Shown: piece after piece, positions 4,125 to 35,190 of the stretch
How positions within the stretch are numbered: position 1 is the stretch's first letter
Layout: every line of letters begins with the position of its first letter
Assembly (NCBI GenBank): GCA_033032175.1
Contig: CM065322.1
Location: 16,492,001-16,556,000 of the forward strand
Origin: Saturnia japonica
Lineage: Eukaryota; Arthropoda; Insecta; Lepidoptera; Saturniidae
Direction: 5' to 3'
Length of the DNA: 64,000 nucleotides
Translations under genes and position numbers: made by a program
Notes under the pieces: generated by a model
Seen by the model: the letters and a program-made list of their open reading frames with translations, nothing else
What the model was told of the DNA's origin: nothing
Database searches by the model: none

Positions 4125-4352
4125 GCTCCCACAGGTTTAGTAACAGATGTTATCAATACGAACAAATATATGATAAATACAAGTTCCCAGCAATGTGATC
4201 ACAAGCAGTGCTATTAATTTACCAAAATCAACCAACCCATTCTTAATTCTTTGACAATACCCACAAAGCTTAGTACTGTTCTTTTACATGAATTACATTT
4301 CATAAAGGGATAGTAGCAATAGTAATTAACTATCTAACATTCTATTTTATAG

Positions 4353-5592
4353 GACATCGACAATAGTAATGCTGTCAGAGCCAGTCCAGATGTGAATCGA
4401 AATGCTAATCACAGGTAAAATTGTCGTATCTAAATTCTATAAGACTACCTAATCTGTAATATTTGAAATGAAGTTTAAGGAACTAATGCCGATTAACACA
4501 TGAGTTTTTATTAAAACCGAGTTTTTATTAAAACCAAATGCTATTTCAGAATAATATTAACGTAAACAAACTTATATTTACATTATGCCCTCGAATTATA
4601 ATATATTAAAGTAATAGAGAAGCCGTTTCAAACAAAATTCGTACAAAGTATTGCAAAAAGTACGTGGGAACAGATTAAACAGAAATTTGCTAAGTTGTAT
4701 GTTTTCAATTATAGTCCATGGTAGATAAAATGTTTTAAAAGTAATTACAGCTTTAAATTGGTTAAAATGGTGTAACTGTGAATAAATAGGTTCTTCATTG
4801 CACTTTTAGCTCGTACACTAGCGACCGCAATGCTATAAAACATTTAATACCAACTAACTAGCTATAATGTGGAAAAAGTAGTATTATTGTCGATAGTGCA
4901 ATAGGAAATGAAACATATTTTAATAATAAATAAAAATTCGGACACAGCCTTTGTATTTTGTTATCAGCTGGTGGAATGTGAAAGCTGAGAGTAATGACGC
5001 CGACTCCAGGTGCTCCTATTCCAGCACCAGTACTCCACCGCCTGTGAGTTCCTCCTTTTTATTTTCTTACCCAGTCTGCTCTTACTTTTCAAAATCTTTA
5101 GATTTATGGCTCATATTATCCACCTTGTGAGTTCACTGTGTTCTGCAAGTATCACTCTGTACCTTTTGATAAGGCGCTTAAAATTTCGTTAACATAATCA
5201 ATTACAGTCATATTTATATCAGTCCCTTAGGATTATTACTGAATCTAAATGTAAGCTCCCAAATCCAGAAATTGTGAACCGTTTTGCGTTTTAAGAAAAT
5301 TGTCTTACGCAGTTTGTGTATAGTGAGCATTCATTTAAAATACATCTGTTTCATTGATTATCCTTAATTTGAGATAATGTCAACAATCGTCTATGAATTC
5401 ATCAGACTAAATCTTTACTTTCAATAAAATAAATTAATAGGAAACTCGGTAATTTATTTCCAGGAGTCCGAAGATTCCAGACCTCAAGTGGTAGCAGCCC
5501 GTGGAGACAGTATCATTGCTGTTGCTAACCCAGCAATACATGCGCCTCATACGCTCCATGCGCTTCACCCAGCCAGAAACCATTCCAATTGA
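4353..5592 (+). CDS. 3' exons of an unrecognised gene (left copy)
   Basis: Three exons at 4353-4414, 4968-5043 and 5464-5592 join in phase to 88 codons plus TGA. Each intron has AG at its end and GT at its start (GTAAAA, GTGAGT). The split codon AG|C between exons 1 and 2 gives Ser and the next junction is phase 0. Exon 1 has no start codon, so it continues from an upstream exon not found here. The peptide holds WWNVKAES, a Ser/Thr/Pro run (SYSSTSTPPP), RPQVVAARGDSII and a His/Pro-rich end closing in PARNHSN. That looks like a cytoplasmic or disordered C-terminus. I do not recognise the family. The right arm carries the same exons in mirror image (33174-34435) with identical exon lengths, which supports the model. 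The upstream limit of the palindrome arm is only about 230 bases before exon 1. Confidence 0.65.
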
Positions 5593-7657
5593 TCTTAAGA
5601 AAAGTCTTTGTCTTTGGTCGCTGGCCCATTCTAAATTTGCTTATATAAATGAAAACGCCTAGATACATAGAACATTAGATAAATCAGTTCACATATGACC
5701 ATTATTTATATGTAATCCAAATAATTTCAAGTCCCCTGCACTATGCACATTTAGCAATTAATAAATCACAAATTTATGTAAAGATTAGCCGGACAGGAAC
5801 TCCGTTTCTATGATAATTTAAATAGGCTTAAACAGTGGCATAATAACATATAATGTCTTTTTTTGGACATTTCAAATATTATGTCGATTGGAAATATGCT
5901 ATGTATTAAAAACATTTAATACTATTAATATCTCGTAGAAAATTAATAATGCAAATTTCTGGAACAATTTGCATTTTACTTGTCTTATTATGCCACTGTC
6001 GTTACCTCCAAAAGTTTTAAATATAAAGAAATTTGAAGAGTTGTTTACAATATAATTTTCAATTTAAAATAGTCCATAGAAAATGTAGACTTATTATTGT
6101 GTTCAGTTGATTGCACGCTTTCTGAGTTCTACAAACTTCTGCTTCCATCACATAAAAAATTTAAATGATTTATTTTCAAGTTTAGATGTTACTTGAACAG
6201 CTTCTTTATCAGAGTAATCTGCCGTAGCTACCTTTAATTCGTTTGCCCAACCATAAAAATAACTTCAATTTTCAGTTTAACACCTTATAATTTCACGGGA
6301 TTTTATTAACACATAGGTCAATACTTAACTTTGCATTCAATTAGAGTTGAGCAACTTCAAAATGTGAAGAAAGTGAAAATCATTCCAGCAAACGACATCG
6401 AATATTGATTATTGAACATATAATTTTAAGTGAAGCCATAATATGCCTTTTAGTTTATTTAATGCGACGGTAAGGCCAAATCTGACTTATTTTATGAGTT
6501 TTGAATATCTTGCCTCTTGGAGGCTGGAGGTTGGCAAGACCACATTGTAAATTATCCCGTTGAAAGCAAAAAAAATGTAATAGCTCTTCTGTGATATGAT
6601 ATAATTTCTTCTTTTAATTATAGGATGAATATTCCTTTTAGTTTGCCGTTGCTTTTCTGTTAGATCGTTTTTAGCAGATTTAGCAAACAAATTTTATATG
6701 GACACCAAAACTCTTCCATTTCTCCAACTCTGCCGAGTTGACAATAGATTACTAAACGACTAATTCTCCCGAAGTTGTTGGAATGTGGTATCTATTGTGT
6801 TTCGATAGTTACACGTGAGAGCCATTTCTATATCTAAGCTTATTACCATATTAAATAAAATTAAATTGTGCTCAAACGGTAACCTACAGAAATAAAATAA
6901 AAATGGTATTTAGTTTCAATCTACCCTTACTTTTTGATGAATATCGTAATGCGAAGCAAATACCTTTCATTTAATCTTGATCCCCTGGTAATTTAGGTTA
7001 ACTATCAACTTATTCGATCATATTTATCTGCATAAAAAAGGTAATACATTAATCTATTTCTCATAATCCATCCATATTACGTTTATTGACATAGTCAATA
7101 TTTGAAAACCTGTCTCTGCTATGTGTTTTAAAAGATTCTTCGGCAAACATGATCAGATCAGCCTCACTAGTACTTTAATTTTGACGCATAAATTCAGTTT
7201 CGTTCAATACAGCTTACTCAAAAAAATTAGAAAAAGTTTATTAACTAAGCTCTATAGAATTATTGCTATTAACCTGATTATGAAGAATTATGTATCAACC
7301 TGTAGCCAAGAACGAATAAGTATGTTCCGCTTGAGAGCAAGTCCTCCACTAGACTTAGCGAGCTACCATCACAGGCTACATCGTCACTTAAGATCAGGCG
7401 AGATTGTGACCATAGCGACATAAAAATAAGTAAAGTATAAATAATTAAATAAATATCGGGGGGAAATTAAAGATCGGGAATACCGTTGACTAAAAGAGAT
7501 AAGAATTTATCGACAATGGTTGTTAACGTACAACATAAACGCTTATCACAATCCGCAGTGTGAGATACCGAAGTGAGTCATCAAACGGTTTTAGAGTTCA
7601 CAACCTTCCGCTTCAGAAGTCCTTTCTTTTAGCTTATCAGTTGATATAAGTTCTTTT
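5593..7657. other. Palindrome arm, no confirmed gene
   Basis: The whole stretch is mirrored at 31180-33170. Short frames at 6487-6690 (-) and 7121-7423 (+) persist in both arms, but indels shift them between copies. The second runs into a fragment of the SINE family 1 tail (7360-7420). I do not call a gene here. The mirrored frame at 32500-32721 (+), starting with KVFFGWTNELKVATADYSD, may be an old coding relic. It is broken in the left copy. Confidence 0.4.
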
Positions 7658-7670
7658 AGGACTTCTTCTG
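7658..7670. repeat. Target-site duplication, left, of R1-clade LINE
   Basis: AGGACTTCTTCTG here is repeated at 10896-10908, directly after the poly(A) tail. The mirrored locus near 31160 has a single copy with no insertion. The first A could belong to the tail, so the duplication is 12-13 bases. Confidence 0.95.
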
Positions 7671-7672
7671 CC

Positions 7673-10589
7673 GCCTGGGGGGGCTATGGTGTGGTGGGAG
7701 TCTACTTCTCCCCCAACCGGCCCTTGGGAGAGTTCGAGGTATTCCTCGACTCCCTGGGGCCAGTGGTTAGGCGGCTGTCACCGCTCCCCGTGGTTCTGCT
7801 TGGCGACCTGAACGCCAAGTCGCGGACATGGGGAGCAGTCGCCACGAACCCCCGAGGGTCAGTGGTGGAGGAGTGGGCAGTCCAGGCTGGGCTGTCCCTC
7901 CTCAACCGGGGGGCCGTGCACACGTGCGTGCGACAGAACGGAGGGTCCGTGGTGGATGTTTCTTTCGCCACGCCGTCTGTCGCACGCCGTGTGCAGGATT
8001 GGAGGGTGTTGGAGGAGGTGGAGACCCTCTCTGATCACCGGTATATCCGGTTTGAGGTCTCCACCTCCTCAAGGGAGCTGGCGCGCAGTGCTCGGGGTGG
8101 GTCGTTTTTCCTCCGTTGGGTGGTTAGCCGCCTCAACCGGCAGCTTGCGGAAGAGGCGGCAATCGTCCAGAGCTGGCGCGCGCCGGCTCCTAGTGATGAA
8201 GAGATCGACGCGACCGCGGACCGTTTTCGTAGGGCCCTTACGGCGGTCTGCGACGCGTCGATGCCGCGGGGCAAAAACCGCCCGCAAAGTAGGCGGGCGG
8301 TGTATTGGTGGACCCCGGAGATTGCCGATCTCCGGGTGGCCTGCTCCGCGGCGCGGCGGCAGCTTCAGCGCTGCCGCCGGCGGCAAACCCGTATAGCGGG
8401 AGAGGAGGCCCGGCTGCTTGGCCACTACAGGGAAGCCAGGAAGTCCCTGCAGGTGGCCATCAGCCGGGCAAAGGATGAGCAGTGGGAGGAGCTCCTCAGG
8501 ACTCTGGACAGGGACCCGTGGGGGCGCCCGTACCGGGTAGCCCGGAAGAAGTACAGGGGGCAGGCGCCCCCATTAACGGAGTCCCTGGACTCAGAGGTCC
8601 TGGGGAGGGTCGTGGCCACGTTGCTGCCCGACCCTCCGGAGCTCCTCCCGCCCCCCATGCTATATGGGAGTGTTGCGGAGGAGCTGTTGCCACCCCCCCC
8701 CCGTCACTGAGGAGGAGATGGGGTCGGTGGTGGAGCGCCTCCGCAACAAGCGGAGGGCGCCAGGCCCGGATGGAGTTCCGGGCCGGGTGTTGTGTGTGGC
8801 GTTGGACCACATGGGGGGAGAGCTTCGGGAGCTTTTCAACCGCTGTTTGTCGGCTGGAAGGTTCCCGAAGCTCTGGAAGATGGGGCGACTCTGCCTTCTG
8901 GCGAAGGAGGGTCGCCCCCCGGACTGCCCGTCCTCGTACCGGCCCCTCGTGCTGCTGGACGACACGGGGAAGATGCTGGAGCGCATCCTGGCGTCTCGTG
9001 TCGTCCGGCACATGGAGGAAGTTGGGCCGGTACTTTCGGACCGGCAGTTCGGTTTCCGGAGAGGGCGTTCAACGCTGGACGCCCTCTCCACCCTGAAGGA
9101 GTGGTCCGTGGAGGCGGCCGAGGGGGGAGGTAGGTTGTTGGCGGTGTCAATCGACATCGCCAACGCCTTCAACAGTCTGCCGCACGGTGTTATACGGGAG
9201 GCGCTCCGGTTTTTCGGAGTGCCCTCGTACCTGCGGCGGCTGTTGGGGGACTACCTCCAGGGCAGGGAGGTCGCCTTCGTGGACGGCGGAGGTAGTGTGG
9301 TCCGGCGCCACATTGGGTGCGGTGTTCCACAGGGGTCGGTGTTGGGGCCGCTCCTGTGGAACATGGGCTACGACTGGGTGCTCCGCGTAGCGCTCCCTTC
9401 GGGGTTGCGAGTGCTATGCTACGCGGACGACACCCTAGTCGTGGCCCGGGGGGGAAGATTTGAGGAGGTGGCGCGCCTGGCCACAGAGGGCGTTGCACTT
9501 GTGGTCGGGCGCATAAAGGCGTTGGGTCTCAGGGTGGCGGCCGAGAAGACCGAGGCCATTCTATTTCATGGGCCTCGGTGTGGGCCGCCTCCTGGGGCTC
9601 ACATATATGTAGAGAATGTTAGGGTCCGGGTTGGGGCCCAGGTAAAATATCTGGGCCTCACCCTGGACGGGCGATGGCGGTTCGAGTCCCACTTCAAGGG
9701 ACTCGAACCGCGGATAGTGGGGGCGGCGGCAGCTCTCGGACGGCTTCTTCCGAACTCGGGAGGGCCGGGCGCGAGCTGCCGCCGTCTGTTTGCGGGGGTG
9801 GTGAGGAGCATGGCCGTCTACGGGGCACCGATCTGGGTAGATGCTCTCAGCGCCACGAACAGACGCGTGCTGCGTTCTACGCAGCGTATCGTGGCGCTGA
9901 GAGCCATTCGCGGATACCGATCGGTGTCCGCGGGGGCGGCCTGCGTCCTTGCCGGCTCCCCGCCGTGGGAGTTGGAGGCGGAGGTGCTCGCCGCCGTGTA
10001 CAGGTTCACGGCGGCGGGGAGAGAGTTAGGGGAGCCTCCAGCTCCCACAGAGGTAGACCGGGTCCGGAGGGAGGCCCGGGAGGATGTTTTTAAGAGGTGG
10101 GAGGAGGACCTGGCGGACGCGCGCTATGGACATTATACCATAGATGCTGTCCGCCCGGTCCTCCGGGAATGGAGCAACAGGGAGCGTGGCTCCCTGAACT
10201 TTAGACTTGTGCAGGTGCTATCCGGACATGGTTGCTTCGGATGGTACCTGCACAAGATTGCAAGGAGGGAGTCAAACACTACGTGCCACGAGTGCGGGGC
10301 TGTAGAAGACACGGCGCAGCACACTCTGTCTGAGTGTGCTGCGTGGGTGGAGCAGCGCCGCACTCTGGCCGTAGCTGTTGGGGGAGATCTCTCGCTGCCG
10401 AGTGTGGTAAAAGCCATGCTCGGCAGCGAGCAAGCATGGACGGCGATGGCCTCCTTCTGCGAGGACGTCATCTCGCAGAAGGAGGCTGCGGAGAGGGTTC
10501 GCGAGAGGGATCCCCTGAGCGGCCCTCTCCGCCAAAGAAGAACGGGTGGTAGGAGGAGGCGGTTTATCCGTCAACTCCCGCCACCCTAG
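7673..10589 (+). pseudogene. R1-clade ORF2 polyprotein (EN-RT), frameshifted
   Basis: The product would be the endonuclease/reverse transcriptase that nicks target DNA and copies the element RNA in the nucleus. The first part (7673-8710) holds the C-terminal half of an apurinic-type endonuclease, with GDLNAKSRTWG (about 7801) and the LSDHRY motif (about 8031). The second part (about 8664-10589) is in a different frame and holds the reverse transcriptase: SYRPLVLLD, FGFRRGRST, SIDIANAFNSLPH, GVPQGSVLGPLLWN and the catalytic LCYADD at about 9416-9433. A CxxC...HxxxxC knuckle (CHECGAVEDTAQHTLSEC) lies at about 10285. The frame changes in a run of ten C at 8693-8702. Otherwise the frame is fully open, so only the 5' truncation and one homopolymer slip break it. 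Confidence 0.9.
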
Positions 10590-10645
10590 CCGAACCAGAG
10601 GAGACGGGACGGGGGGGGCCCGTCTCCTCATTGCACTGGTTCGGC
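10589..10645 (+). other. Compound hairpin in R1-clade 3' UTR
   Basis: Starting at the last base of the stop codon, GCCGAACCAG (10589-10598) pairs with CTGGTTCGGC (10636-10645). GAGGAGACGGG (10598-10608) pairs with CCCGTCTCCTC (10619-10629). This gives a long two-part stem with a small bulge. Such a 3' structure could be the template feature recognised by the element's own reverse transcriptase; that role is inference. Confidence 0.7.
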
Positions 10646-11604
10646 AGGAGGAGGAGACGGCTATCGGGTGTACATAGCTGTCTCCTAATTAGGCCGGGGC
10701 CCGGTTAGCCGGGCCGGCCCCCGGGGCGGCGCGGCAGAATGCCAGCGCAGTACCCGCGTCGCCCCATTATGGGGCGGCTGTACACCGCGGAGTTTTTTAG
10801 TGAGTAGGACTCTCACATAACCACTCGACCCCCCAATTCGAGTGTGTACCCATGACGGGTTTTCCACTCCGCGTTAACAAAAAAAAAAAAAAAAAAGGAC
10901 TTCTTCTGATGGGATTACGAGTTACAACTGAACGAGAATTAGTAATACTAATTATTACCTCATGTTATATGATTATGAAGTTATCTACTAATTTGATAAT
11001 TGATAGTCAATATTAATAGGTAATAAGTAAATGTCTCGATTATATAAATCATTCATAATTGCCCACAACTAGTAATGACCTACGTAGAACGGTACAGTGT
11101 GCGTACGTGCGTACGTACTACACACCGTTCTTGCAAACAGCAGTAAGCTTTATTCTACGCAAATGAAGCTAGTTTGGAAGTCCATGATGTTATTCCACAT
11201 CCCATCAAAACCGATTAGTTCCGTTAAATGTTTTTATGCAATCAGTTTCATCCATGTATTTCGATATGATTTACGCATGTCAACAATTTCTTAATTTTCT
11301 GCAGTAGATATTTGTTTTTTGAACTGTATTTAACACAATGTGTAATGCAATTATAACAACTAATCACAAGTTTTTAAGCGTTGATACCAGCCACTATGTA
11401 TACTTCTCCGTGTGTAAGTGTCTGTAAATATACATAATATATTATATAACAAACCTAAATGTATAAATAATTTAGAAACCGGCATTGCCTTAATGTTATT
11501 TAAATATAATTTTTACATGAAAGCTGTTTTATTGTAACACTAACGAAACATCCTTGTTTGTAAAGCTAAAGATTTGTTGCTTGTTAATGGTTTGCAGTAC
11601 AAAT

Positions 11605-11850
11605 CCTGATGATCAAGATCTGTTGTGGAAGGGAGATGGTGCGATAAAATCGTACAACTCTTCAGAACACTGGCCTTGATATAGACGATAAAATACGCTC
11701 AAAGAGACAATGTTTCTTCGTAACTGAAGCGGTTCTAAGTTATTAATTACGTTTCTATTATTCACAATACGAACAGACTTTCGCTGCAAACTTTGCATCA
11801 AGGAACTATTAGGCGAAATTGTCCCAGAAATGATCGAATATTTAACGAAC
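11605..11850 (-). pseudogene. Jockey/CR1-group LINE C-terminal fragment
   Basis: The minus-strand translation reads LQRKSVRIVNN, NNLEPLQLRRNIVSLSVFYR and then CSEELYDFIAPSPFHNRS. This is the post-RT C-terminal region typical of Jockey/CR1-group LINEs (pattern: IQRRAxRIV, LxxLxLRRDxxSLCxFYR, GECSEELF). The mirrored copy is at 30175-30430 (+). The fragment was therefore in place before the palindrome formed. Confidence 0.75.
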
Positions 11851-12245
11851 TTACATGAAGATTTTTATGGCATTTATAAAATAAATTAAATAAAAACTGA
11901 TATAAATCTCCCGTTAATACGCGGACGCAGTCTGTGGACTCAACATGCGCACACGCATTGATTGTAATTCAAGATCTGTCGCAATGAGGTCAGTCCATGA
12001 GATACGCTTCGGGTATCGAATCCGCAATCGCTTTGACGATAATAACTAGGGTTACCACATTTTTTTTTAGCAAATAAATTAAAAATGGTTAAAGTTAGGT
12101 GAAAAAGTAAATTGTATCAAATTGACAAAAAAATTCGACTGCTTCCACAGCTTAATGTTCTACGGTACTTTACTGTGGGGTTGTAAAAACGAGCAGTTTG
12201 AGCAATTTATGACATGGGACTACGCGAATCATTGGGGAACAAGTT

Positions 12246-12768
12246 TCTACTTCTCGCTTCGCTCACGTGGACTACAGAATGCTCGCGCAAAAATTCTCCC
12301 CTTCTGCCGGCTATTTTAACGACAAAAATGCTTATTGTGAGTATTTCTTAGAAGATAGATGTATATTCTCTCGGTATTTTTTTGTAGGTTTTTTAATGCC
12401 TATAATTATGTAGTACATTATTTTGCTATATCTCTTATGGTTTACTCAGCATTAGCCAATTTAAGTGCCCGAAATGATTCACCATTATCAGTTTTTTTTT
12501 ATTTGTGCGAAACCCTAATTTTTTTCTAAAATAAAAGTATCCTAAGTTACTCCCTATATCATCAGCTATCTATCAGCGAAAGTCCCGTCAAAATCAGTCC
12601 AACCGTTTCGGAAATTACCCGGAACGAACAGGCAGACAGACAAAAAAAAAATTAAATGGGCTTTTTGCTTTAGGTATCGTATATACTTTCATATGCATTT
12701 AGTAAACAACTGTTTTTTTTTTTACATTACAAACAGACACTTTAATTTTATTAATTGTTTAGATAATT
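12246..12768 (-). repeat. Dispersed repeat family C, copy 1
   Basis: It matches 41119-41632 and 46178-46712 in reverse and 47155-47625 in direct orientation. Landmarks on its own strand are CAGACACTT-type sequence at one end, ACGGTTGGACCGATTTTGAC, TAGATAGCTGATGATA, and GTGAGCGAAGCCACGGGCAC at the other end. It interrupts the palindrome at a point where the right arm (29310-29725) has different sequence. It is non-coding, and its parent class is unknown. Confidence 0.7.
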
Positions 12769-13299
12769 GTCCCTAGTAACGTACAGTACTTTATTATAAA
12801 GTACAAGTGGCAACCCTAATAATGACACATTTTTCCTTGTAAAATGGATTTTTCTGTTTGTTATCGCCTTCTAGAGGTCTAAGGTTTCCTGTCTTACAAT
12901 AACAAACATTAATTTTCAGAAGCACCAGCATTGCGATTAAATATTCTAGATCGATAAGCAGCTCTCTTTATTAACTTAGCTCCCGGGGATGACACATACT
13001 AATGCCAATTTTATGTACATTTTTGACATCCTAGAGCCAAAGGGTCAATATCTTTGTCTAGTCTAGAACATGGGTGATTTAACTTATAGTGTCAGAGATC
13101 TACTGCAAAAATTGAAGCAGAAGTCGATGAAAAGTTATATTATAGAGTTAACGAAAAGATCGAAACAATTTTTTTTATTACAAAGCGATTTAAACAAGCG
13201 GTAAAAGAAATAATTATAAAAGTGATTTTACTAGATGCATCGATAATATTATATTTCATTAACGGCCATATAATTCCAAACTAAGCAAAGCTTGTAACA

Positions 13300-13425
13300 T
13301 ATATAGATATTTACAAATATTACAATTATACTCATTGTTAGTCAAGGTTAGCCGGATTGAATTCGCGCCATCTCAGCCTATTATTAGGGTTTACTACCAC
13401 TGCGCCACGAGACTAAGTTGTGAAT
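13300..13425 (-). mobile_element. tRNA-derived SINE (family 2) fragment, left arm
   Basis: On the minus strand it reads TCGTGGCGCAGTGGTAGTAA, an A-box region, then a degraded B box. It is the mirror partner of 22308-22420 and so was present before the palindrome formed. Better preserved copies are at 14682 and 53993. Confidence 0.6.
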
Positions 13426-13760
13426 AAACAAGGATTGCTTACAGCTATTGGATATGTCTCCTCTACTGGTTGGTATTTGGTAATAATAAACACTTAGTAT
13501 TGTATTTACTCATTGACGTAATAATATAAAAATACAATTTGACCTAAATCTGCGTTATGATTAGTTGTAATAGTCTCATTTATGAAAACACATTCCCTAC
13601 ATAATCGCTGGGTAAAACCCAATACATTCAATAACTAAACTGTATCAGTAAATATTCTCGAGGAAAATGGTTAAACTCGTAAACTATTCCTATTATAACG
13701 CTTGCAAATAGATTTATCCTTACAAGTTTACGTGAAATATTTCAATATTTTATTTATGTA

Positions 13761-13995
13761 AAAGACCACGGCCTGTCGAGAACTGCTGTAAGTTCTATCT
13801 TAGAACGGGTTTCTAAAGCAGCATTAACAGGCTCTTACCAAATCTGGCTTGGCAGGGAGGGTATCGCGGTCAGTCAAGGTGAGCGCTGATATGCATCATA
13901 AGGGGGCCCCTTAAACCTAGTTCCGGGGGCTACTCATGTTCCCTCTGTCTGCCACACGATGGACTCGCCACCCGCACGGTGAATCCATGTAATGC
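13761..13995. other. GC-richer segment, likely repeat fragment
   Basis: The base composition changes abruptly (GGGGGCCCCTT near 13901, CCCGCACGGTGAATCC near 13971). There is no matching partner in the right arm and no ORF. It looks like an inserted repeat piece private to the left arm. I cannot name the family. Confidence 0.4.
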
Positions 13996-13999
13996 TAAA

Positions 14000-14195
14000 A
14001 TTTTTGTCTCAAATACAAGGCTGTATATGTTTGTTATTTCTTCACGCTCAAGCGTCTTGACCAATTTGGATAATATTTGATATGGAGGTAGCTGACACCC
14101 TGGATTAACACATAGGCTAGTTTTAAGGTTTTTTTTTTTTTTGAAGGTGTCTTTTAAATTATACGCGGGTGAAACCGCGGGGCACAGCTAGTAAT
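14000..14195 (-). repeat. Repeat family H (CTAGCTGTGCCC terminus)
   Basis: On the minus strand it starts ACTAGCTGTGCCCCGCGGTT and continues TTCACCCGCGTATAATT. Related copies are at 21818-21978 (+) and 39405-39700 (+), with terminal pieces at 43450-43485 and 52960-52990. The 21818 copy lies at the mirror position in the right arm and may be the same ancient insertion. Confidence 0.6.
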
Positions 14196-14681
14196 TTATA
14201 AATAATATTAATAAAATAATTAATATTCATTTTTTAAATAAATTATCCTGCTTGCTTAAAAATGTTAAGCTTGCTTGTTGGATGGTAGGACTCGATAATT
14301 GTTTGCAACTAAATCGTGACTACCGTACATCAGGTGAAATACTCTGAAGGTATATAACTACATAGGTGTATAACTTCATGCTATATTTCTAAGACAGTAA
14401 CTATGAACGTCAAACAAACTGTACGCAAATGCGGGAAGTGCGAACAACAATAGGATGGAGAGTCGGTCGAATCCAAATAGTATATGTTATTTTAAAGTAC
14501 CAACGTAATATTTATCGAACCCCGAGTATGGAAGACGACATGGAAAACAATATCGGGGTTGCATGAGATATGAACGGGGTTCAAGAATTGTGGATCTCAT
14601 TTAAGCAGTTCGTGACTTTAATTCTGTCATTCCATGAATGGAATAATCCACATACATACGTATTTAATTAGATAATACCTC

Positions 14682-14935: not shown

Positions 14936-15017
14936 TGTGTATGCAATTTTGCCAATGTCAAGTGTGACAAATATACGTTATAGAATTTTGTTATTTATTA
15001 TTATAATATATATATAT

Positions 15018-15376
15018 ATTAATACGTGAAGCAAAAGCTTTCTACCCCTTTTTAAGCGTATTACGTGCACGGAAGACTGTGAGACTTGGCATGTTTAAAG
15101 TTTATATGGAGATCCTTCAAAGCTATAATGTATCTATAATATCTGTTACTAATATATTAAATTAAATAAACTAATACTGCGAATCTTAACCCGACCAGTG
15201 CCATTGAACTTAGACCTCCCAAAATATTGACATTGTCACTCAACGAAAAATGACAGAAAGTGATGTAGATAATACTCATTGTTTAGGTTCACGAATACTG
15301 CAAATGTCAAACAGAAAATAGTGTATGATCAAAAAGTCGCTGGTCGAATTTTGACGTTAGGGCGATCGCTAGTAAT
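15018..15376 (+). repeat. Dispersed repeat family A, copy 2
   Basis: It has the same landmark order as copy 1 (TTAATACGTGAAGC to GGGCGATCGCTAGT). It is absent from the mirror position in the right arm, so it is a private insertion or was lost there. Confidence 0.8.
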
Positions 15377-15379
15377 TGA

Positions 15380-15830
15380 TATTATTCTTATTATCATTGC
15401 ATTATAATATATGTACATAAAATATATATCAAACTACCTATGAAGTAACACTTTTAAAAAGACAATAATTTCATGAAGCTTGAAGAAGAATAATATCAAA
15501 ATTTAAGTTACAATTAGCCATAATTTCTTTTTTTAAATTTATAATATGAAACTCAGTAAGAATTATCATAAACTAGAAGTTTCTCGCATGAGTCTATATT
15601 TAGGATTTTAAAAAAAATCGCGGTAAATTGTAGTCTGTAAAAGCATTCATTTTATGCTTATTTATTTTATGTAAAAAATACGTAATAAATTTTAATTTGC
15701 TTAGTTTCAATTGATTGTTTTGTTAAGATTAGCTGTAACAAACAGACATTTCAATTTATTATTTGTATATATATGTACGACGGATAAGGATAATTTAGTA
15801 TTACATGGTATTGGAATGTAAAACATTATC
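15380..15830. repeat. Inner palindrome block (left partner)
   Basis: This is the reverse complement of 21030-21530. Shared landmarks include AAATCGCGGTAAATTGTAGT against its complement near 21290, ATTTGCTTAGTTTCAATTGA against 21210-21230, and GGATAAGGATAATTT against 21038-21052. It shows that the palindrome continues inward past 13.8 kb. Confidence 0.8.
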
Positions 15831-15930
15831 TAAATGCAAAGTTTCATCGAAATCGTTGGAGCCGTTTCCGAAAAACCAATTACACATATATATAGTATAT
15901 TTACAAGAATTGCTTACTTAATATAATAAG
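15815..15930 (+). repeat. Dispersed repeat family B, copy 2
   Basis: It is nearly identical to 1900-2012 around ATGCAAAGTTTCATCGAAAT, GGAGCCGTTTCCGA and CTTAATATAATAAGAT. It is non-coding. Confidence 0.65.
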
Positions 15931-16604
15931 ATAATATGACCTTATGACATAGTTTAGGACATATGATGTTATTTATTTCGACAGCAAGGAGCCTTGATCT
16001 TTAGAAATAGGTAAAGACGACCAAGATAACACATTAATCGAATTTGAAACCACAACTACAAAATACAGTTTGAACATTTCTAATAGTAAAATTAAAGTGC
16101 ACTGTACATTGTTCTACTGTGATTTCAATATACTCGTTAGTCATGTTTTTTTCCTATTCTATTTAATCCAACTAACGCATTCTTTTAAATATAATTTGAA
16201 GCCATGCAAGCCTTACATGCGCACCGAGGTTATTTGTTAAGGACACGTCGATCAAAGGCGTGAGTAGCTCACTGATTGTGTTTATTTTAAATTATATCAA
16301 ATTATTTCTTATGAAAAACCCAATCGCAAGTTCGTATCAAGTTTTGTGGTACATTATGTGGAAAATCCAAATTAAAAACACTAATTGATGAATAATTCTT
16401 TATTTTTATCAAAATATTTCATGGCAATTTATTTATTACAGAAGCGCCAACAGCGCATATATTATATTTGACCCATTTTTACAATTAATTTTAAAGGCTA
16501 CACGTGCTATCATCTTGGGCCACATCGACACTTAAGATCACTGCAGCACCGCTCTGGTGCGACATAGCAAGCGGCGCGGCGCGTCGCTCCTGCCATCTTC
16601 TAAA

Positions 16605-16735
16605 AACTCTGTTGTCGCAAAAGGACAAAACTTTCTCCTCGCTCACGCCGGTATCAAGACGAAAGTGAATTGAGGTCAATTACCCTTCGTTCACAATGTC
16701 ATGTAAAGAGCGTGAATATCGTATCTACATAAAAA
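16605..16735. repeat. Innermost inverted repeat G (left partner)
   Basis: This is the reverse complement of 19905-20035. Shared landmarks are GGTATCAAGACGAAAGTGAA, CATGTAAAGAGCGTGAAT and CGTATCTACATAA. It is either the innermost surviving block of the palindrome or an independent repeat pair. Its collinear position favours the first. Confidence 0.65.
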
Positions 16736-16804
16736 ATATAATTGATAGTAAACTGCAAAATGTGACTGATCCTCATTTTATTACTGAGTATTAAAAATAT
16801 ATTA

Positions 16805-18086: not shown

Positions 18087-18231
18087 TAATATACACTATT
18101 GATACGCCTTTTTCTAACGCGATTTCCACCCATATATTGTCTTTACTTGCCTGGTTCATGTTGGAGATCGAACAGCTCTCGATAAGTACTAAGAGTATTA
18201 GTTAATTTTTCTTCGTCATATTCCTGTTTTT

Positions 18232-21028: not shown

Positions 21029-21029
21029 G

Positions 21030-22420: not shown

Positions 22421-22704
22421 TTAATACGTGACGAAAATTCTTTCTTCCCCTTTTTTAAGCGTATTGTGTGCACGAAAGATTTGGCATGGTTAATGTTTAT
22501 ATGGAGAAGGAGTGCAGAAAGCTAAATTAAATTAATTAATACTGCGAATCCTAACCCGACCAGTGCCATTGAACTTAGACCCCCTAAAATATTGACATTG
22601 TCACTAAACGAAGGCTGACTGTTTAGGTTCGTGAATACTACAAATGTCAAACAGAAAATAGTCTATGATCAAAAAGTCGCTGAACTTAGGGCGATTGCTA
22701 GTAA
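22421..22704 (+). repeat. Dispersed repeat family A, copy 3 (private to right arm)
   Basis: This is a shortened copy. The left arm is continuous across the corresponding point (around 13305), which gives a natural empty site for this repeat. Confidence 0.8.
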
Positions 22705-22899
22705 TTGTAAATATCTATATATGTATGTATACAAGCTTTGCTTAGTTTTGAATTAAATGGTCGTTGGTGAAATATAATATTATAAATGCATTCTAGTAAA
22801 ATCACTATTATAATTATTTCTTTTATCGCTTGTCTATGTCGCTTTGTAATTTATTTATTTTTTTGTTTTGATCTTTTCGATAATTTCATAATAATAATA

Positions 22900-23803
22900 A
22901 ACCTATTATTGCAGACTACAAAAATCTATACAGCAGTATTAAGTAAAAGCCTAAAATTATTAGTAACAGTAAAAACTCACATATTACTGTTAGTTTAATA
23001 TCTATAAAATGGCGCTCGCACGCATCTCGCCTCGTTAGTTCTCACATTATGTGTTTTTTGTTGTACATGAGGACCAAAAAATTAGCGTCTTTAATCTATC
23101 CACTACGTGGGATGTGAGTCGTACTTTTACACTTATGATAATGATATGTGTTGAGGACAGATGAGTAGACATCGCCTCACAGTATAAAATAAAAGAAATC
23201 TAATGTTGATATATTTGTTGCGAGTCTAAGTTGTCATGTTTGTATTTTTACGTATAACCATTCAATGTCGTTTATTTCGTGTTTTTATGGTCAATTATTT
23301 AGAATATCTTTTAAACCACGTCTTGTTATTTTGTGCTTTTATTTTGTAGTTATATAGATAATAAATGGTTTTGTTTTATAACGTATGTCTATGTACTATT
23401 AGCAATTTGCTTAGGAAATTTATATGGTTTAGAATGACTTAGTAATTAAAATTACGTGTTTCTTGAAGTTAGGGTAAGAATTATCTAGCTTATAATGTTT
23501 TACTATGACTAATTACTTGTTAGGAACTACGATTTATCTATTGAAAGTGATTATGTATTATATACTGCCATGTTGTGTACCATAAATAATTTGTGTGTTT
23601 GTGTTTATATTTGTAGGGTAAGTATTCCCTAACCAGAAGACTATTTAAAGTCTTCTAAAGTAAATGGTCTTTTGCAAATGGTCTTATGTAAATTTTCTTA
23701 TGTGAATTATCTTATGTAAAAACTGCATTACGTAACTCGAATGAGTCATTGTTTTTGTGGCATAAATATTATTATTAACGTGTAATTATAATTATTACTT
23801 ATT
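22900..23803. other. AT-rich sequence inside the right-arm insertion
   Basis: No ORF, RNA gene or repeat partner was recognised. Internal TGGTCTT/TTATGTAAA motifs repeat a few times near 23665-23720. Confidence 0.4.
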
Positions 23804-23815
23804 AATTTAAAAACC
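23804..23815. repeat. Target-site duplication, left, of RTE element
   Basis: AATTTAAAAACC here is repeated exactly at 26679-26690, after the ATG/TGA-rich tail of the element. It defines both ends of the insertion. Confidence 0.85.
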
Positions 23816-26678
23816 GTTTAATTTGCCGTGGTGGTTCCGGCTTAGAATTGACCCCTCCATCTCTACCCGTGGATGTCGTAAGAGGCGACTAAGGGAAAAA
23901 AAGCGTGGCGAGTATGGGCAAATCCCCCCAATGAAAACGACAAGAACGACCAGGCCCCCAGTCCCCGGCGGCCCCGCTATTCCTAGTTTCGGTAGCGGCT
24001 ATGGTAACGGCGGGGCAGGGGGTGCTAAGAATCCCCGGAAGAGTTCCAGCTACCGACCCCCACGACAACTGGCCCTGGCAACATATAATAATCGCACTTT
24101 GAGGACTGACGAGAAAATTGTCGAGCTGGAAGAGGAAATAGACAAGTTACACTGGGATCTTATAGGATTATCAGAAGTCCGAAGAGAGGGTGAGGACACG
24201 ATAATCATGAAATCAGGTAACTTGTTCTATTACAGGGAGGGCGACCAACAGTCCCTAGGTGGTGTCGGGTTTATCGTCCGGAAGTCTCTCATTAACAACA
24301 TCGTGACCATCGACAGTGTGTCGAGCAGGGTAGCGTACCTGATACTCAGAATATCCAAAAGATATTCGTTGAAGGTCATACAGGTTTACGCACCGACCTC
24401 GGTACACCCTGATGATGAAGTGGAGGTTTTGTATGAGGACATTAGTAGGGCCATACATACCTAGAAAACCCACTTCACTGTTGTAATGGGAGACTTTAAC
24501 GCAAAGCTGGGCAAAAGAGATGGTGAAGAGTTGGGAGTGGGGCAATTTGGTTATGGGCAACGGAACCTTAGGGGCCAGAGGTTGGCCGATTTTATGGAGA
24601 AAGAGAGACTCTTTATGATTAACTCTTTCTTCCAGAAGCCACCTCATAGGAAATGGACCTGGATGAGCCCCGATGGTTCCACGAAAAATGAGATAGACTT
24701 CATCATGACCACGAAGAGACAAATATTCAATGATGTCACTGTGATTCACAGAGTGAAAACCGGCAGTGGTCACCGAATGGTTAGAGGCACATTGAATATC
24801 AATCTAAAAATAGAAAGTTCTCGCCTGATGAAGTCTACGCTCCGACCCTCTAATGCTCAACTCCAAAACCCCGAGAGCTTTCGAGTCGAATTGAAAAACC
24901 AATTCGATTCCCTAGATAGTTGCGTTACCGTAGATGATATTAGTAATAGGCTGGTAGAAACTGTCCATGCGGTTGGGTCCAAGTTATTTAAAACTCACCG
25001 TAGCAATAGGACTCAAAAGATATCAGATCAAACCCGAAAACTCATGGCGGATCGACGTGGTATGGTGCTGCAGTCTTCCGATGACGCTAAGTCGTATAGG
25101 CAGCTCAATAGATCTATTCATAAATCCTTGTATTGACCCGACACTATACCGAAGATATCCCCGACATCACCCTGTACGAGATTAGGATGGCCCTTAAGCA
25201 GCTTAAGAACAACAAGGTGCCGGATTATGACGGAATTACATCAGAGCTTCTTAAAGCGGGTGAAACACCGGTACTTAAGGTCCTGCAGAAGCTCTTTAAT
25301 TCCGTTATACTCGAGGGTAAAATGCCGGAAACGTGGGGCGGCAGCGTGGTGGTCCTGTTCTTCAAGAAAGGTGATAAAACCTTATTGAAGACCTATCGGC
25401 CCATCTCGTTGCTGAGCCATGTTTATAAGCTGTTTTCGAGGGTCATCACGAATCGTCTCGAGCACAAGTTTGATGACTTCCAGCCTCCCGAACAAGCCGG
25501 TTTCCGAAAAGGCTTTAGCACCGTAGACCACATCTATACGCTGCGGCAGATTATACAGAAGACTGAGGAGTATAATCTGCTTTTATGCTTAGCGTTCGTG
25601 GACTACGAAAAAGCCTTTGATTCGGTCGAAACCTGGGCAGTGTTGCAGTCTCTCCAGCGGTGCCGTATTGACTATCGATATATCAAAGTGTTGAAGTGCT
25701 TGTACAACAACGCCACCATGTCGGTCCGAGTACAGGAGCAGTGCACGAAGGCAATTTCTTTGAGAAGAGGCATTAGACAGGGAGACGTAATATCTCCGAA
25801 ACTGTTTACCGCCGCTCTAGAGGACGCCTTCAAGCTCTTGGAATGGCAAGGACTCGGCATCAATGTTAATGGCGAGTACATCACTCACCTTCGATTTGCT
25901 GACAACATCGTAGTCATGGCAGAATCGCTGGAAGATCTTGGCACAATGCTCGATGGCCTCGACAAAGTTTCTCAACAGGTGGGCCTTAAAATGAACATGG
26001 ACAAGACGAAAATCATGTCGAATATCCATGTGGTGCCCACTCCAGTATCAGTAGGGAACTCTTGTCTAGAAGTTGTTGAAGAATATGTCTACCTGGGACA
26101 AACAGTCCAGTTAGGTAGGTCCAACTTTTAAAAAGAGGTCAGTCGACGAATCCAACTCGGCTGGGCAGCGTTCGGGAAACTGCGCGTCGTCTTCTCGTCC
26201 AAAATACCTCAGTGCCTCAAGACGAAAGTCTTTGACTAGTGTGTGTTGCCAGTGATGACATACGGCACAGAGACGTGGTCGCTCACTGTGGGCCTCATAA
26301 GAAAGCTCAAGGTCGCTCAGCGAGCTATGGAGAGGGCTATGCTTGGTGTTTCTCTACGAGATCGAATCAGAAATGAGGAGATCCGTAGACAAACTAAGGT
26401 AACCGACATAGCCAAAAGGATTAGCAAGTTGAAGTGGCAGTGGGCGGGGTACATAGTTCGGAAAACTGACGGCCGTTGGGGCAGAAAGGTTCTCGAGTGG
26501 AGACCACGCACCGGAAAGCGCAGCGTAGGACGGCCCCCCACTAGATGGAAAGACGACATAATAAAGGTCGCTGGGAGCCGTTGGGTGCAGGCCGCACAAG
26601 ATCGGTCGCTCTGGAGATCTATGGGGGAGGCCTATGTTCAGCAGTGGACGTCCTGCGGCTGAAATGATGATGATGATG
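23816..26678 (+). mobile_element. RTE-clade LINE with both ends, degenerate
   Basis: A 12-base target-site duplication bounds a 2.86 kb unit. It begins with a short leader containing the motif CGTGGATGTCGTAAGAGGCG, common in lepidopteran RTE elements as I recall. It continues with one ORF (endonuclease then reverse transcriptase) and ends in a (TGA)n-type tail instead of poly(A), as is usual for RTE. Internal damage is listed under the ORF entry. Confidence 0.93.
23823..26662 (+). pseudogene. RTE endonuclease/reverse transcriptase pseudogene
   Basis: Once a single EN-RT protein. The endonuclease part has LALATYNNRTL, WDLIGLSEVRREG, YAPTS, VVMGDFNAKLG (about 24484) and SGHRMVRG. The RT part has MALKQLKNNKVP, YRPISLLSHVYKLFSRVI, EQAGFRKGFSTVDHI, LAFVDYEKAFDSVE, GIRQGDVISPKLFT and HLRFADN. 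The C-terminal region has GYIVRKTDGRWGRKVLEWRP and SVGRPPTRWKDD. Damage: in-frame TAG at 24462, a frame change with apparent loss of the EN-RT linker near 25130, TAA at 26129 and TAG at 26237. The catalytic FADD box reads FADN at 25895-25906, so the RT would be dead even if the frame were open. Confidence 0.93.
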
Positions 26679-27094
26679 AATTTAAAAACCTATGATTAGT
26701 TAAATATAGTCCTAAGCATATAACGCCCAATGTAATAGTTATAAATACCAAGATTATTTAAATTCCGTGCCAAGTTGTACAACGGTACGGCTCGAAAGTT
26801 CAGTTCACATCCCCATATTATACGGGATTCTGGTGGCGGCTTAAGATAAATAAATACAGTCCACATTGTATCTGTGTTTTTTGGACCAAACCCAACAATA
26901 TGACTACCTTGTTATGACAATGGTGTGGATGCTTCTAAACCTGGAGTGCTCTATGAGTCGATCGCGGGGTTTCTTGAAAATATTACCTTGATAGTATCGC
27001 AGCGTCGATCGTCGGCGTTACTATGCCTTTAGTATTAATATTCATGCGTATTTATATCCTACATTTTGTTTTATTTTTAATGCAATACAGTTAT

Positions 27095-28620
27095 GCACTT
27101 GGCTTCGATCTTACCTGATGGTAAGTAAAGATGAGGTCGACGATGTATCGAGCTTACCTATTAAATGCTTATTCAATCTTCGCTTGAAGACTCCCAAGTT
27201 ATAGGTGGATGGGAAAACAGACGACGGGAGTGAATTCCACTCCTTTTCCGTTCGCATAATGAACGTCGAAGCATAACGCTTCGTGCGAATCAGGGGAATT
27301 TCCACGACATAAGGGTGGAATCCTTCACGGCGTCTAGTTATCCTATTGTGGAATGGATTGGGCAGAATTAAATCGTGCAATTCCTCTGCACACTCTCCAA
27401 AGTGCAACTTGTAAAACACTGAGAGGCAAGTTACCTTACGTCGATGCTCTAGACAGAGCTTTTTCGCTGTCATCAGTGCCGTTAGGAAAAACGGACTCCG
27501 TTTAGCTGAGAACAGACGCGCTTGTGTTTTTTCAGCATTAAATCTGACCAAGTTCGCATCACCCCAGTGGGATACGAACCTAAGGTTCAGATTCAAGCGT
27601 TCAACCATGGCCTCTCTCTCATTATGGACTTCCTGTTAATTAGCCTGCGAATTGAATAAGTTACAGTGCTGTCATCTGCGTACCCAACGATACCGGGTTT
27701 TAGTAGATCGTTGATGTGCAGCAGAAATAGTGTCGCTGAGAGTACAGGTCCCTGAGGAACTCCGGCATTTATAGCCTTGGTAAAAAGTGAGGTTATGGCT
27801 ATTGGTCAGTAATTAGAGGGGTCTGCTCGGCTCCCCTTTTTAGGAACTGGCTGGATGTTTGCAAGCTTCCAAGACTTTGAAACAGTACCGGATTCCAGAG
27901 AGAGGCAGAAAAGACGTGTCAGAGCAGGAGCCAACTCAGGTGCGCCGTTTTTAAGTACCCTTGATGAAATGCCATAGGTGCCAAAGGCTTTATTCACGTC
28001 TAGATTTAGAAGCACTCCTCGTACGTGCTTAGTAAGGATTGCAATTTCCCGTATTACTGAACCGCACGAAGATATTGTGGGCGGAATTCTATAACCAGCA
28101 TCCGGATGTGAATTATTTGCAAACTGGCTTGAAAAATATTCGCCTTTTCAGCTGCAGAACGAGCCAGCATACCATCAAATTTTATCAAAGGTGGAAGCGA
28201 AGGCCTAAGAAAGTTTACTTCGACCGGTTTGACGAGAGACCAAAAAGCTTTGCTTCCTGAGGGATAAGTAGCAAGCTTGGCTCCAATGCGAGCAATGTGG
28301 TCAAAGCAAGCTTTTCGGCAGAACTTTCTTACTGAACTTGGTAGCTTTATTAAAAGCTTACGTTTTGTCTTGCAAATCGGGGGATTTGTGGCAACGTGAT
28401 TCAGCCTACGCTTCTAAAGCTAATACTTTAGCCCTTTCAGCTTCAGCACAATCAGCGTTAAACCACGGGCGAGCTACACCCACGATTGGTACGTCGAAAT
28501 ATGGTACAAAATATTCCATAGCCCGACTCATCACATCGGAAATGGCAGAAGCGCAGCTTGACGGATTTGGTGACAGAAAGCATGTTTTCTGCCAAGGACA
28601 AGATGCTATGAAGTAACGCA
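27095..28620 (-). pseudogene. Jockey/CR1-group LINE ORF2 fragment with deletions
   Basis: Minus strand, in order: linker region with GVARPWFNADCAEAERAK (about 28440-28500), then FGTYGISSRVLKNGAPELAP and LANIQPVPKKGSRADPSNY (27806-27980), then in another frame NAGVPQGPVLSATLFLLHIN and VGYADDSTV, with YADD at 27671-27682. It ends with the C-terminal part (27111-27608) containing RVS/FVSHWGDANLVRFNAEKT, CLSVFYKLHFGECAEELHD and EKEWNSLPSSVFPSTYNLG. The catalytic YADD survives, but blocks between SNY and NAGVPQG and after FFLTAL are deleted. The protein is dead. Confidence 0.85.
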
Positions 28621-29010
28621 TCTCATCCCAATCCGCTGACTTATGTCGTCATACCCTTCTCATGCCCCTAGGGCTTGCATCTGGAGAGGGAGTAAGAGAA
28701 GGAAGTATGAAGTAAAAGATGAAAGAAATAGCTACACCGTTCCTATAATTGTCTGTGCGAAACTGCATTTTTAGTTATGAAAATAATGAAATCTAATCTC
28801 TCGGCTGACTAACGAACGCGTATCATCTCGCTCATGGTTAGCAATAGAATTACTTGCTATCCCATAGGAAGTATGTGGATGACATGCAGTCCCATGCACC
28901 AAAATCCTGAAGAGTTTTGTGATTTCTGAGTTTGCACCTTCATCCGGTACCTATTTTATTTGTAATGTGTATTAAAAGCCATCTCATAATCATTATGTTT
29001 TTCTATCGTA
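28621..29010. other. Non-coding end of the right-arm insertion
   Basis: Nothing recognisable between the LINE fragment and the point near 29015 where similarity to the left arm resumes (GCAGTAGATCTCTGACACTA). Confidence 0.4.
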
Positions 29011-30174
29011 TCAGAAGATTGGCAGTTGATCAGCTTCTGCCTAAATTTTTGCAGTAGATCTCTGACACTATAAGTTTAAACACCCATGTTCTAGACTAGA
29101 CAAAGATATTGACCCTTTGGCTCCCGGAAGTTAAAAATGTACATAAAATTGGCAAGTATACAGTATACGTCATCCCCAAGAGCTAAGACCTCTAGAAGGC
29201 GATAACAAACAGAAAAATCCATTTTACAACGAAAAATGTGTCATTATTAGGGTTGCCATTTGTACTTTATAATAAAGTAGTGTACGTTACTACGGGCAAT
29301 TATACTATAATATAATTTATGAGGAAAATAAAGTACGTGAATCAAATGCTTTATTCACAATTAGATTTTTTTTTTTAAACACCAAGGAAGTTGAAAATTG
29401 TAAACCAAACGAATGTGTATTCCCAACTGGTGCAGCGGTGTCTGATTCGATGGAATGATTCACTCATATATGTAAATAACAAAAATAACACCTATATACT
29501 CTCTCAGCTCGTTTATATCTTACTAATTTTTTTTCAAAATCAAATATATTTTCTTCGGCTTTGGCTACCGGTTCGAAAAACATCTCAGTTATGAAGAAGA
29601 AGCGTTAAGACACTTGATTGGGTATTTGTTATTTTATTATAATAAAATTTGTTATTTTATTGTTTTTAGAGTATTTATATTATTTACAGTTATTATCATT
29701 TAATAAGTTAAGTTAAAGAATTCTTGAAACTTGTTCCTCGGTGATTCGCGTGGTCCCATATTATAAATTGGTCGAACTGCCCGTTTTTGTAATACAAATA
29801 TGATATCTACCTCAACTGCGGAATCCCACAGTGTTACCGTAGGAAATTAAGCTGTAGAAGTAATTCATTTTTTTGCCGATTTGATACAATTTATTTTTTC
29901 GCCTAACTTCAACATGAAATATCTTATATTTGCTAAAAAAAAATGTGGCAACCCTAGTTATTATCGTCAAAGCGATTGCGGATTCGATACCCGAAGCGTA
30001 TCTCATGGACTGGACTCATTGCGACAGATCTTGTATTACCGGGAGATTTATATCAGTTTTTATTTAATTTATTTTATAAATGTCTTAAAATATCTTCATA
30101 TAAATCCGATAAATATTAGATCATTCAAAACTTGTAATGTTAGGGTTTTTTACGCCCGGCCAGCTGTACCTTCA

Positions 30175-33173: not shown

Positions 33174-34435
33174 TCAATTGGAATGGTTTCTGGCTGGGTG
33201 AGGCGCATGGAGCGTATGAGGCGCATGTAACGCTGGGTTAGCCACAGCAATGATACTGTCTCCACGGGCTGCTACCACTTGGGGTCTGGACTCTTCTGAC
33301 TCCTGGAAATAAATTACCGAGTTTCCTATTACTTTATTTTATTGAAAGTAAAGATTTAGCCTGATGAATTCATAGACGATTGTTGACATTATCTCAAATT
33401 AAGGATAATCAATGAAACAGATGTATTTTAAGTGAATACTAACTATACACAAACTGCGTAAGACAATTTTCTTATATCGCAAAACGGTTCACAATTTCTG
33501 GATATGGGGGTATACGTTTACATTCAGTAATAATCCTAAGGGACTGATATAAATATGACTGTAATTGATTATGTTGACGAAATTTTAACCGCCTTATCAA
33601 AAGGTACAGGGTGAAATTTGCAGAACGCAGTGAACTGATAAGGTGGATAATATGGGCCATAAATGTAAACAGTTTGAAAAGCAACAGCAGACTGTGTAAG
33701 AAAATAAAAGAGAGGAACTCACAGGCGGTGGAGTACTGGTGCTGGAATAGGAGCACCTGGAGTCGGCGTCATCACTCTCAGCTTTCACATTCCACCAGCT
33801 GATAACAAAATACAAAGGCTTTGTCCGAATTTTTATTTATTATTAAAATATGTTTCATTTCCTATTGCACTATCGACAGTAATATTTTTTCCACATTACC
33901 GCTAGTTACTTGGTATTAAATGCTTTATAGCATTAGGGTCGCTAGTGTACAAGCTAAAAGTGCAATAAAGTACCTATTTATTCATAATTACACCATTTTA
34001 ATTTTTTTTTACAAAATAGCTTGAGTTAATATTTGCAAGTAATATGATACGAAGCTGTAATTACTTTTATAACGTCTTATCAACAATGGACTATAATTGA
34101 ATACATACAACTTAGCAAATTTCAGGTTAATCTATTACCACGCACTTTTTGCAATACTTTGTATGAATTTTGTTTGAAACGGCTTCTCTATTACCTTAAT
34201 ATATTATAATTCGAGGGCATAATGTAAATATAAGTTTGTTTACGTTAATATTATTCTGAAATAGCATTCGGTTTTAATAAAAACTCATGTGTTAATCGGC
34301 ATTAGTTCCTTTAACTTAATTTCAAATATTACAGATTAGGTAGTCTTATAGAATTTAGATACGACAATTTTACCTGTGATTAGCATTTCGATTCACATCT
34401 GGACTGACTCTGACAGCATTATTATCGTCGATGTC
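33174..34435 (-). CDS. 3' exons of an unrecognised gene (right copy)
   Basis: Mirror copy of 4353-5592. Exons at 34374-34435, 33723-33798 and 33174-33302 have exactly the same lengths (62, 76 and 129 bases). They have the same GT/AG borders, the same phases and the same TGA. Amino acid differences from the left copy are few: DIDDNN for DIDNSN, VSP for ASP, SDD for SND, ESEES for ESEDS, PALH for PAIH and HAPH for HALH. No indel or stop separates the two copies in coding sequence, although the introns carry indels. As on the left, no upstream exon is found: repeat F (34650) begins about 215 bases before the first exon. It points towards the left copy (tail to tail). Confidence 0.65.
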
Positions 34436-34649
34436 CTGTAAAATAGAATGTTAGATGGTTAACTATTGCAACTATCCCCTTAAGAAATGTCGTTCATCTA
34501 AAAGAACAGTACTAAGCTTTGTGGGTATTGTCAAAGAATTAAGTTTAAGTTGGTTGATTTTGGTAAATTAATAGTACTGCTTATAATCACATTGTTGGGA
34601 ACTTGTATTTATCATATATTTGTTCGTATTGATAACATGTCTTACTAAA

Positions 34650-35190
34650 ACCCTTTAAGATTAAAGGAACCTATTGGCAGTAATCCATTTAGAATTCAAA
34701 ATCTTACTGGAACAAACAAATTGAAATCTTTATTCGATATTCACTTCCAATAACGCTAACAGGTGATACAAATCACAAGGAATTAACACTTTAACCCTTA
34801 ATTCCATTCTTTAAAAGAATTTAGTAGCTACATTAAATTTACAGAAAAATATTGTGATGCCCTCATTATAAAGTACAAATTAGAACCATCTCAAATATTT
34901 ACATAATTCGTCTATATATTTTAGAAGCACCAAATAATAAATAGAAGCATGCAAATATAATATTTACAAAAACAATACTTACCGGATTAAAACAATATAC
35001 AAGTTAGTATAGTAGATAAAGCAAATCAATTTACAATGTCTACAGAAGAAATTTAGTTTTGTTAAAAGCTTTCGACATGCTTACCTTAACTGATAAAATA
35101 CCTACCAATGTTTTGACTAGATTTAAAAAACCTTAGATTTCCCTCACCATTAATTTCTATCTAGAAAATAAATCTAATGAGTTAACAGAG
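34650..35190 (+). repeat. Repeat F, copy 2 (outer edge of right arm)
   Basis: Direct copy of 18498-19060. It starts at the exact point where the palindrome arm ends, so its edge coincides with a rearrangement breakpoint. Confidence 0.85.

Follow-up and report, generated by a model that had tools for sequence, protein, structure and literature searches.

An inverted partial duplication of nab in Saturnia japonica and traces of its probable origin by tandem duplication and inversion

How does the end of one gene come to lie twice, in opposite orientations, at the two ends of a 30-kb palindrome? Old palindromes often retain few traces of their origin. We examined this question at the nab (NGFI-A-binding protein) locus of the lepidopteran Saturnia japonica, in a window of 64,000 bases (contig CM065322.1, positions 16,492,001 to 16,556,000) that is part of a 580-Mb, 402-contig assembly (GCA_033032175.1), the one genome analysed. 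When the window is compared with itself, reverse-complement blocks follow one another in mirror order between 4136 and 34649, and this imperfect palindrome of about 30 kb is an inverted duplication at a single locus. The 3′ end of nab forms its right arm, with the last three coding exons, their introns and downstream DNA. The sequence-only reading of this DNA had taken the structure for a large inverted duplication. An origin as one simple palindrome does not fit a direct copy of a nab intron piece and an inverted copy of a left-flank piece in the centre, which indicate tandem duplication and then inversion. From the arrangement of these pieces we consider it probable that the 3′ end of nab was duplicated in tandem and that the distal copy was later inverted via a staggered break.

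Junction pieces in the centre of the palindrome

The nab intron piece adjoining the right arm, F2 (34650-35184, plus strand, 535 bases), has a direct-orientation copy in the centre, F1 (18498-19066, plus strand), which is 93.8% identical without gaps, and their common part ends at 35184 and 19066, respectively. A genome search with 34660-36000 returned two places, the right-arm flank and the centre (both of the two candidates scored). The left-flank piece adjoining the left arm, f (3952-4103, plus strand), recurs inverted as f′ (18404-18498, minus strand) directly to the left of F1, with 92% identity over about 105 aligned bases. Additionally, a 49-base short repeat to the left of f, here called e (2998-3046, plus strand), has a direct copy e′ (18331-18379, plus strand) to the left of f′. 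On the left side, e and f are parted by an element of about 880 bases (3055-3938) with 49-base inverted ends, the body of which resembles repeats elsewhere in the window and at other loci.

The outer edge of the left arm, at 4136, corresponds to 34649 on the right, directly before the start of F2; F1 starts where f′ ends. Writing A for the outer arm and I for the inner blocks, A meets F2 at 34649 and F1 meets f′, and the uninverted A-F junction is therefore still visible on the right, intact at 34649/34650, and is parted on the left into 4136 and 18498. The breakpoint segment is present at both new junctions, in opposite orientations, as f and f′. Undoing the inversion gives, by adjacency, the order left-flank element, I, A1, F1, I, A2, F2, nab, which is a direct tandem copy.

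In the history that we propose, tandem duplication would have produced nab-F-A-I followed by F-A-I. The distal A-I copy would then have been inverted, with one break at the intronic A-F junction and the other, staggered by about 150 bases, in the left-flank element, so that f would have remained at both new junctions. Supposing that e-f-e′ formed a single element, a stagger of this size would give a single e and a single f at each junction. The outer arms and F would have been recopied, by gene conversion or repair copying, after divergence of the inner blocks had begun, with 11746/30303 as the edge of the copied tract, and transposons would afterwards have inserted into each arm independently.

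Mirror-ordered blocks and the nab exons they carry

We used an affine alignment of both arms to tell genuine arm blocks from private inserts. The outer pair, which holds the 3′ end of nab on the right and its inverted copy A1′ on the left, lies at 4136-7670 (plus) and 34649-31158 (minus) and is 91.2% identical with gaps (E 0). It is followed inward by 10896-12247 (plus) and 31170-29726 (minus) at 83.2%; by 12744-13131 (plus) and 29317-29026 (minus), in two pieces of 91% and 87%; by 13138-13760 (plus) and 22893-21983 (minus), in two pieces of 82% and 79%; by a weak seventh pair at 14024-14209 (plus) and 21938-21796 (minus), 64% with gaps; and by the innermost accepted pair at 15380-15761 (plus) and 21521-21160 (minus), 79%. 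Six mirror-ordered pairs had been claimed from sequence alone, and all six recur reverse-complemented in order, by self-comparison and by local alignment, five of them with the identities just given. The innermost of the six (16604-16746 and 20038-19896, 82% as reverse complement) is a dispersed repeat with more copies within 60 kb of flanking DNA and was rejected as an arm. Inward of 15761, 15811-15978 and 21021-21195 also match dispersed repeats.

Genome searches were made with four blocks by a method that passes over simple repeats and very common words, scoring 40 of 1674 candidates for the outer block, 40 of 674 for 13130-13760, all 21 for 15380-15735 and 40 of 98 for 12766-13130. For the outer block and the three inner blocks alike, the best second copy among the matches listed is the opposite arm, and the other matches on the list come from dispersed repeats within the blocks and are either shorter or weaker. 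For these four blocks this rules out an assembly of independent dispersed repeats found genome-wide, and the earlier claim of a large inverted duplication holds.

The identity of the gene is given by a minus-strand open frame at 36758-37624, which carries NAB NCD1 and NCD2 domains above the curated cut-off, and by a second NCD2 exon at 36349-36507 on the same strand. Among named proteins the best matches come from Lepidoptera, with Dendrolimus kikuchii (89%) and Bombyx mori (88%) at the top. Exons were placed by comparing five proteins (P0001, P0002, P0003, P0007 and P0017) with the window and 30 kb on each side. On the minus strand, protein comparison places one exon to the right of the window (75376-75239) and a further upstream exon at 40777-40673. 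Domain and protein matches place parts of NCD1 and NCD2 at 37549-36794, and the rest of NCD2 follows at about 36474-36346 (exact ends by eye). The exon at 36126-36045, upstream of the palindrome, is in frame with the exons of the right arm. These are the third-last coding exon (34435-34374), the second-last (33798-33723) and the last, with the stop (33302-33174), all on the minus strand. Joined to the three, exon 36126-36045 gives an in-frame product down to the stop that resembles the C-termini of relatives. For four of the five proteins, the last two exons find their match in the right arm and, in inverted form, in the left arm as well, the exception being P0002, whose C-terminus differs; the additional 62-base exon upstream of these two is present in both arms. 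The claim that the duplication includes gene sequence can thus be made specific to the last three coding exons of nab, and the right arm probably supplies the 3′ end of nab today.

Both arms carry these three exons with the intervening introns. In the left arm the inverted copies lie on the plus strand at 4353-4414 (third-last, splice sites kept), 4968-5043 (second-last) and 5464-5592 (last, with stop), and the set still has its AG/GT splice sites and reads open over 88 residues, with the stop retained. Lying on the opposite strand, it should be impossible to splice in cis to nab. Left and right exons differ by 7 nonsynonymous changes over 205 sites and 4 synonymous changes over 59 sites, small counts that are near the expectation for one drifting and one working copy. 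Within the last two exons, four changed residues of the left copy occur in none of the listed relatives that cover them, as expected of a drifting copy. At one position of the third-last exon the residue is V on the right and A on the left, and 11 of 14 listed relatives have A (2 V, 1 T), which disagrees with a simple split into a working right copy and a drifting left copy. The left set is probably an unused, drifting fragment. We regard it as highly doubtful that the inverted set is still used, either through recombination between the arms that flips the 30-kb interior or through double-stranded RNA from the arms that tunes nab. If it were, arm recombination would swap both sets of nab 3′ exons within the population, and the open left copy with its preserved splice sites, as well as the heightened similarity in the 3′ part, would have been maintained rather than left over.

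Divergence between the arms and rival explanations

Divergence was computed over 6013 positions in selected blocks, out of 6597 aligned. The best single change point falls at 11746 on the left and 30303 on the right, with an ungapped identity of 95.5% outside and 87.3% inside; its log-likelihood gain is 58.4, against a maximum of 9.2 among 500 shuffles, and the range within 2 log-likelihood units is 11724-11750 on the left. Kimura two-parameter (K2P) distances in the outer arm are 0.070 (4136-5500), 0.039 (5500-7657) and 0.033 (10896-11745), a range of 0.033-0.070, and F1 and F2 differ by 0.065. Further inward they are 0.149 (11746-12246), 0.083 (12766-13128), 0.153 (13138-13758), 0.161 (14024-14198) and 0.145 (15380-15734), so that four of the five inner blocks lie at 0.145-0.161. 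Insertions and deletions follow the same step: their density is 3.4-6.0 per kb outside and reaches 17.9 per kb in block 11746-12246 and 17.1 per kb in block 13138-13758. A weaker second step within the outer arm, at 5335, was equalled by 1 of 2000 shuffles. Little weight attaches to the longest run of perfect matches, 177 bases, as 80 of 2000 shuffles reach it. The earlier observation that outer blocks are more alike than inner ones is borne out, and the change is mainly one sharp step.

For this gradient the sequence-only reading had offered gene conversion at the outside or relaxed constraint inside. The step, read from the alignment, is better explained by gene conversion or by a second round of copying than by relaxed constraint, which is disfavoured by repeat-derived bits of the outer arms that are about as similar as their neighbours. 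These bits differ at 13 of 170 sites (4766-4938), 3 of 133 (7297-7429), 3 of 185 (10896-11080) and 6 of 130 (11616-11745). Taking 6.7% as the expected level, from the arm introns and F1/F2, the four together differ at 25 of 618 sites where 41 differences would be expected (P 0.004), and the three inward bits at 12 of 448 against 30 (P 2e-4). The pair 7297-7429 and 10896-11080, chosen by hand, has 6 in 318 against about 21 (P about 1e-4); the outermost bit alone shows no deficit. Recent copying of the 3′ part accounts for this deficit better than constraint does, though not decisively, and constraint on one copy alone could halve divergence there. A sharp boundary between alike and unlike sequence, as expected of gene-converting palindromes, is present at 11746/30303; the near-99% identity expected of such palindromes is not, with outer arms at 95.5% and inner at 87%. 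Crossing over between old repeats was also considered as a cause of the step and rejected: it predicts that the inner blocks occur a third time near nab, and no such copy was found in the window and 30 kb on each side, nor among the comparable genome matches listed.

Several observations weigh against tandem duplication followed by inversion and recopying. The f/f′ pairing amounts to about 105 gapped aligned bases and e/e′ to only 49-57 bases, and between F1 and the inner end of the right arm (19067-21159) repeats bury the tandem junction and make it illegible. A single tandem duplication predicts uniform divergence, and inner parts that are two to four times more diverged call for an extra copying event. 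The block at 12766-13128 breaks the clean two-level picture, and part of it (12975-13128) has only 6.5 insertions and deletions per kb. Mismatches in the outer arm are clustered (index of dispersion 2.15, reached by 0 of 2000 shuffles), and the shuffle tests consequently overstate the significance of the steps. Finally, constraint on the gene's own copy may contribute to the similarity of the outer arms.

A variant compatible with inversion is that the arms were built in two rounds beforehand, an old duplication of the inner blocks alone (about 15%) being followed by younger, one-sided, homology-started repair that copied the nab exons and intron onto the first copy from 11746/30303. This is a tentative possibility, in line with the sharp step and with F being about as diverged as the outermost arm; gene conversion acting on an old duplicate of full length would look the same here, and the block at 12766-13128 matches neither of its levels. 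Fork stalling and template switching (FoSTeS) and microhomology-mediated break-induced replication (MMBIR) are names for replication-based template-switching mechanisms, a single event of which could have made the inverted arm, f′ and F1 together. We judge this unlikely. The f pieces (92%), the F pieces (93.8%) and the outermost arm (93%) are similarly diverged, as from one event, and the junctions share, by eye, just a few bases; however, at least three switches would have to end exactly at the A-F and f junctions, both of which one inversion covers, and the older inner blocks would be left unexplained.

Flipping of the distal copy by ectopic crossing over between inverted copies of the f/e element is less likely still. 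It would account for the opposite orientations of f at the two ends of the inverted segment, but it predicts a complete element with two e's at each end, where we found one e each and a cut f. No copy of e or f was seen in 32 other loci totalling 142,274 bases, a non-random set of flanks and repeat-bearing loci. An assembly artefact, whether a folded read or a head-to-head join of haplotypes, is very improbable, as a folded read would be nearly identical up to the axis and these arms differ by 3-16% with a step, hold different transposons and have duplicated flank pieces in differing orientations. We give almost no credence to a giant foldback transposon or one with long terminal inverted repeats. 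Long inverted arms do flank a spacer with transposase sequence, but that transposase belongs to a separate 1.3-kb mariner, the right arm holds nab exons, and the matches listed for the tested arm blocks include no comparable copy beyond the two arms.

Inserted elements and related systems

The left arm alone carries a non-LTR insertion at 7671-10895 (plus strand), with an A tail and with endonuclease and reverse transcriptase domains, which we take to be R1-like. It is flanked at both ends by the 13-base target duplication AGGACTTCTTCTG, and the right arm keeps a single uninterrupted AGGACTTCTTCTG, the empty site, in agreement with the earlier claim that the duplication predates several transposon insertions. 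The element has about 66% GC within a stretch of about 33% GC and is apparently 5′-truncated. Additional insertions confined to the left arm are dispersed repeats at 12256-12763 and, at this place, 14993-15385, and a repeat at 13760-14023 with a further copy in the left flank. Confined to the right arm are a dispersed repeat at 22412-22704 and a 6-kb stretch with non-LTR reverse transcriptase sequence at 22894-29027 (all on the plus strand). Between arm blocks, about 400 bases at 29318-29725 are also found on the right only, and of these 29567-29668 alone matches another part of the window, 37664-37760.

The centre holds a mariner-type element at 16798-18093 (minus strand) with 36-base inverted ends and a transposase domain, which has inserted within another element (16538-18323), about 490 bases long and bounded by GC-rich inverted ends of 50 bases. 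To the right of F1, a repeat occupies 19067-20058; a copy of it, 87-89% identical, lies about 35 kb further left (-16817 to -15611 in window coordinates). Outside the palindrome, 44726-45416 and 46177-47602 are two more local inverted repeats of about 60% identity, parts of which recur in the window. Searches of the window found no Rfam match and, with the bacterial code, no tRNA.

Drosophila inversions are chromosomal in scale and lie between distant points. At the locus studied here a segment of about 14 kb (present length), itself a tandem copy of a gene end, would have been inverted beside its parent to give a palindrome. According to PMC5080602, staggered breaks of Drosophila inversions leave the breakpoint segment inverted at both new junctions, and the O8 inversion has, as here, a duplicated fragment from just one of its two breakpoints. 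Large palindromes of the mammalian X and of a willow sex chromosome, whose arms are kept alike by gene conversion between them (PMC8981503, PMC7023750), are likewise inverted arms of which part is more alike, with a sharp edge, and PMC8981503 gives an arm identity of over 99% for mammalian sex-chromosome palindromes. Unlike those, the outer arms here are 95% identical without gaps, hold three exons of one gene and have breakpoint fingerprints in the centre. Hairpin RNA (hpRNA) loci, proposed in PMC10317233 to originate from their targets, resemble this locus as inverted repeats made from a protein-coding gene. They differ from it in that about 18.6 kb separates the more similar outer arms here and that the locus is known from DNA alone. 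Our literature search found no paper combining NGFI-A-binding protein, Lepidoptera and duplication.

The inverted partial duplication of nab is an ordinary kind of rearrangement that is unusually legible. The intact junction, the inverted and duplicated breakpoint piece and the direct intron copy make a history of tandem duplication and then inversion readable from one genome, and the private transposons and the empty site serve as relative clocks. The locus is also a hazard for annotation, in that the last three exons of nab are present twice and the inverted set may be miscalled as a gene or confuse read mapping.

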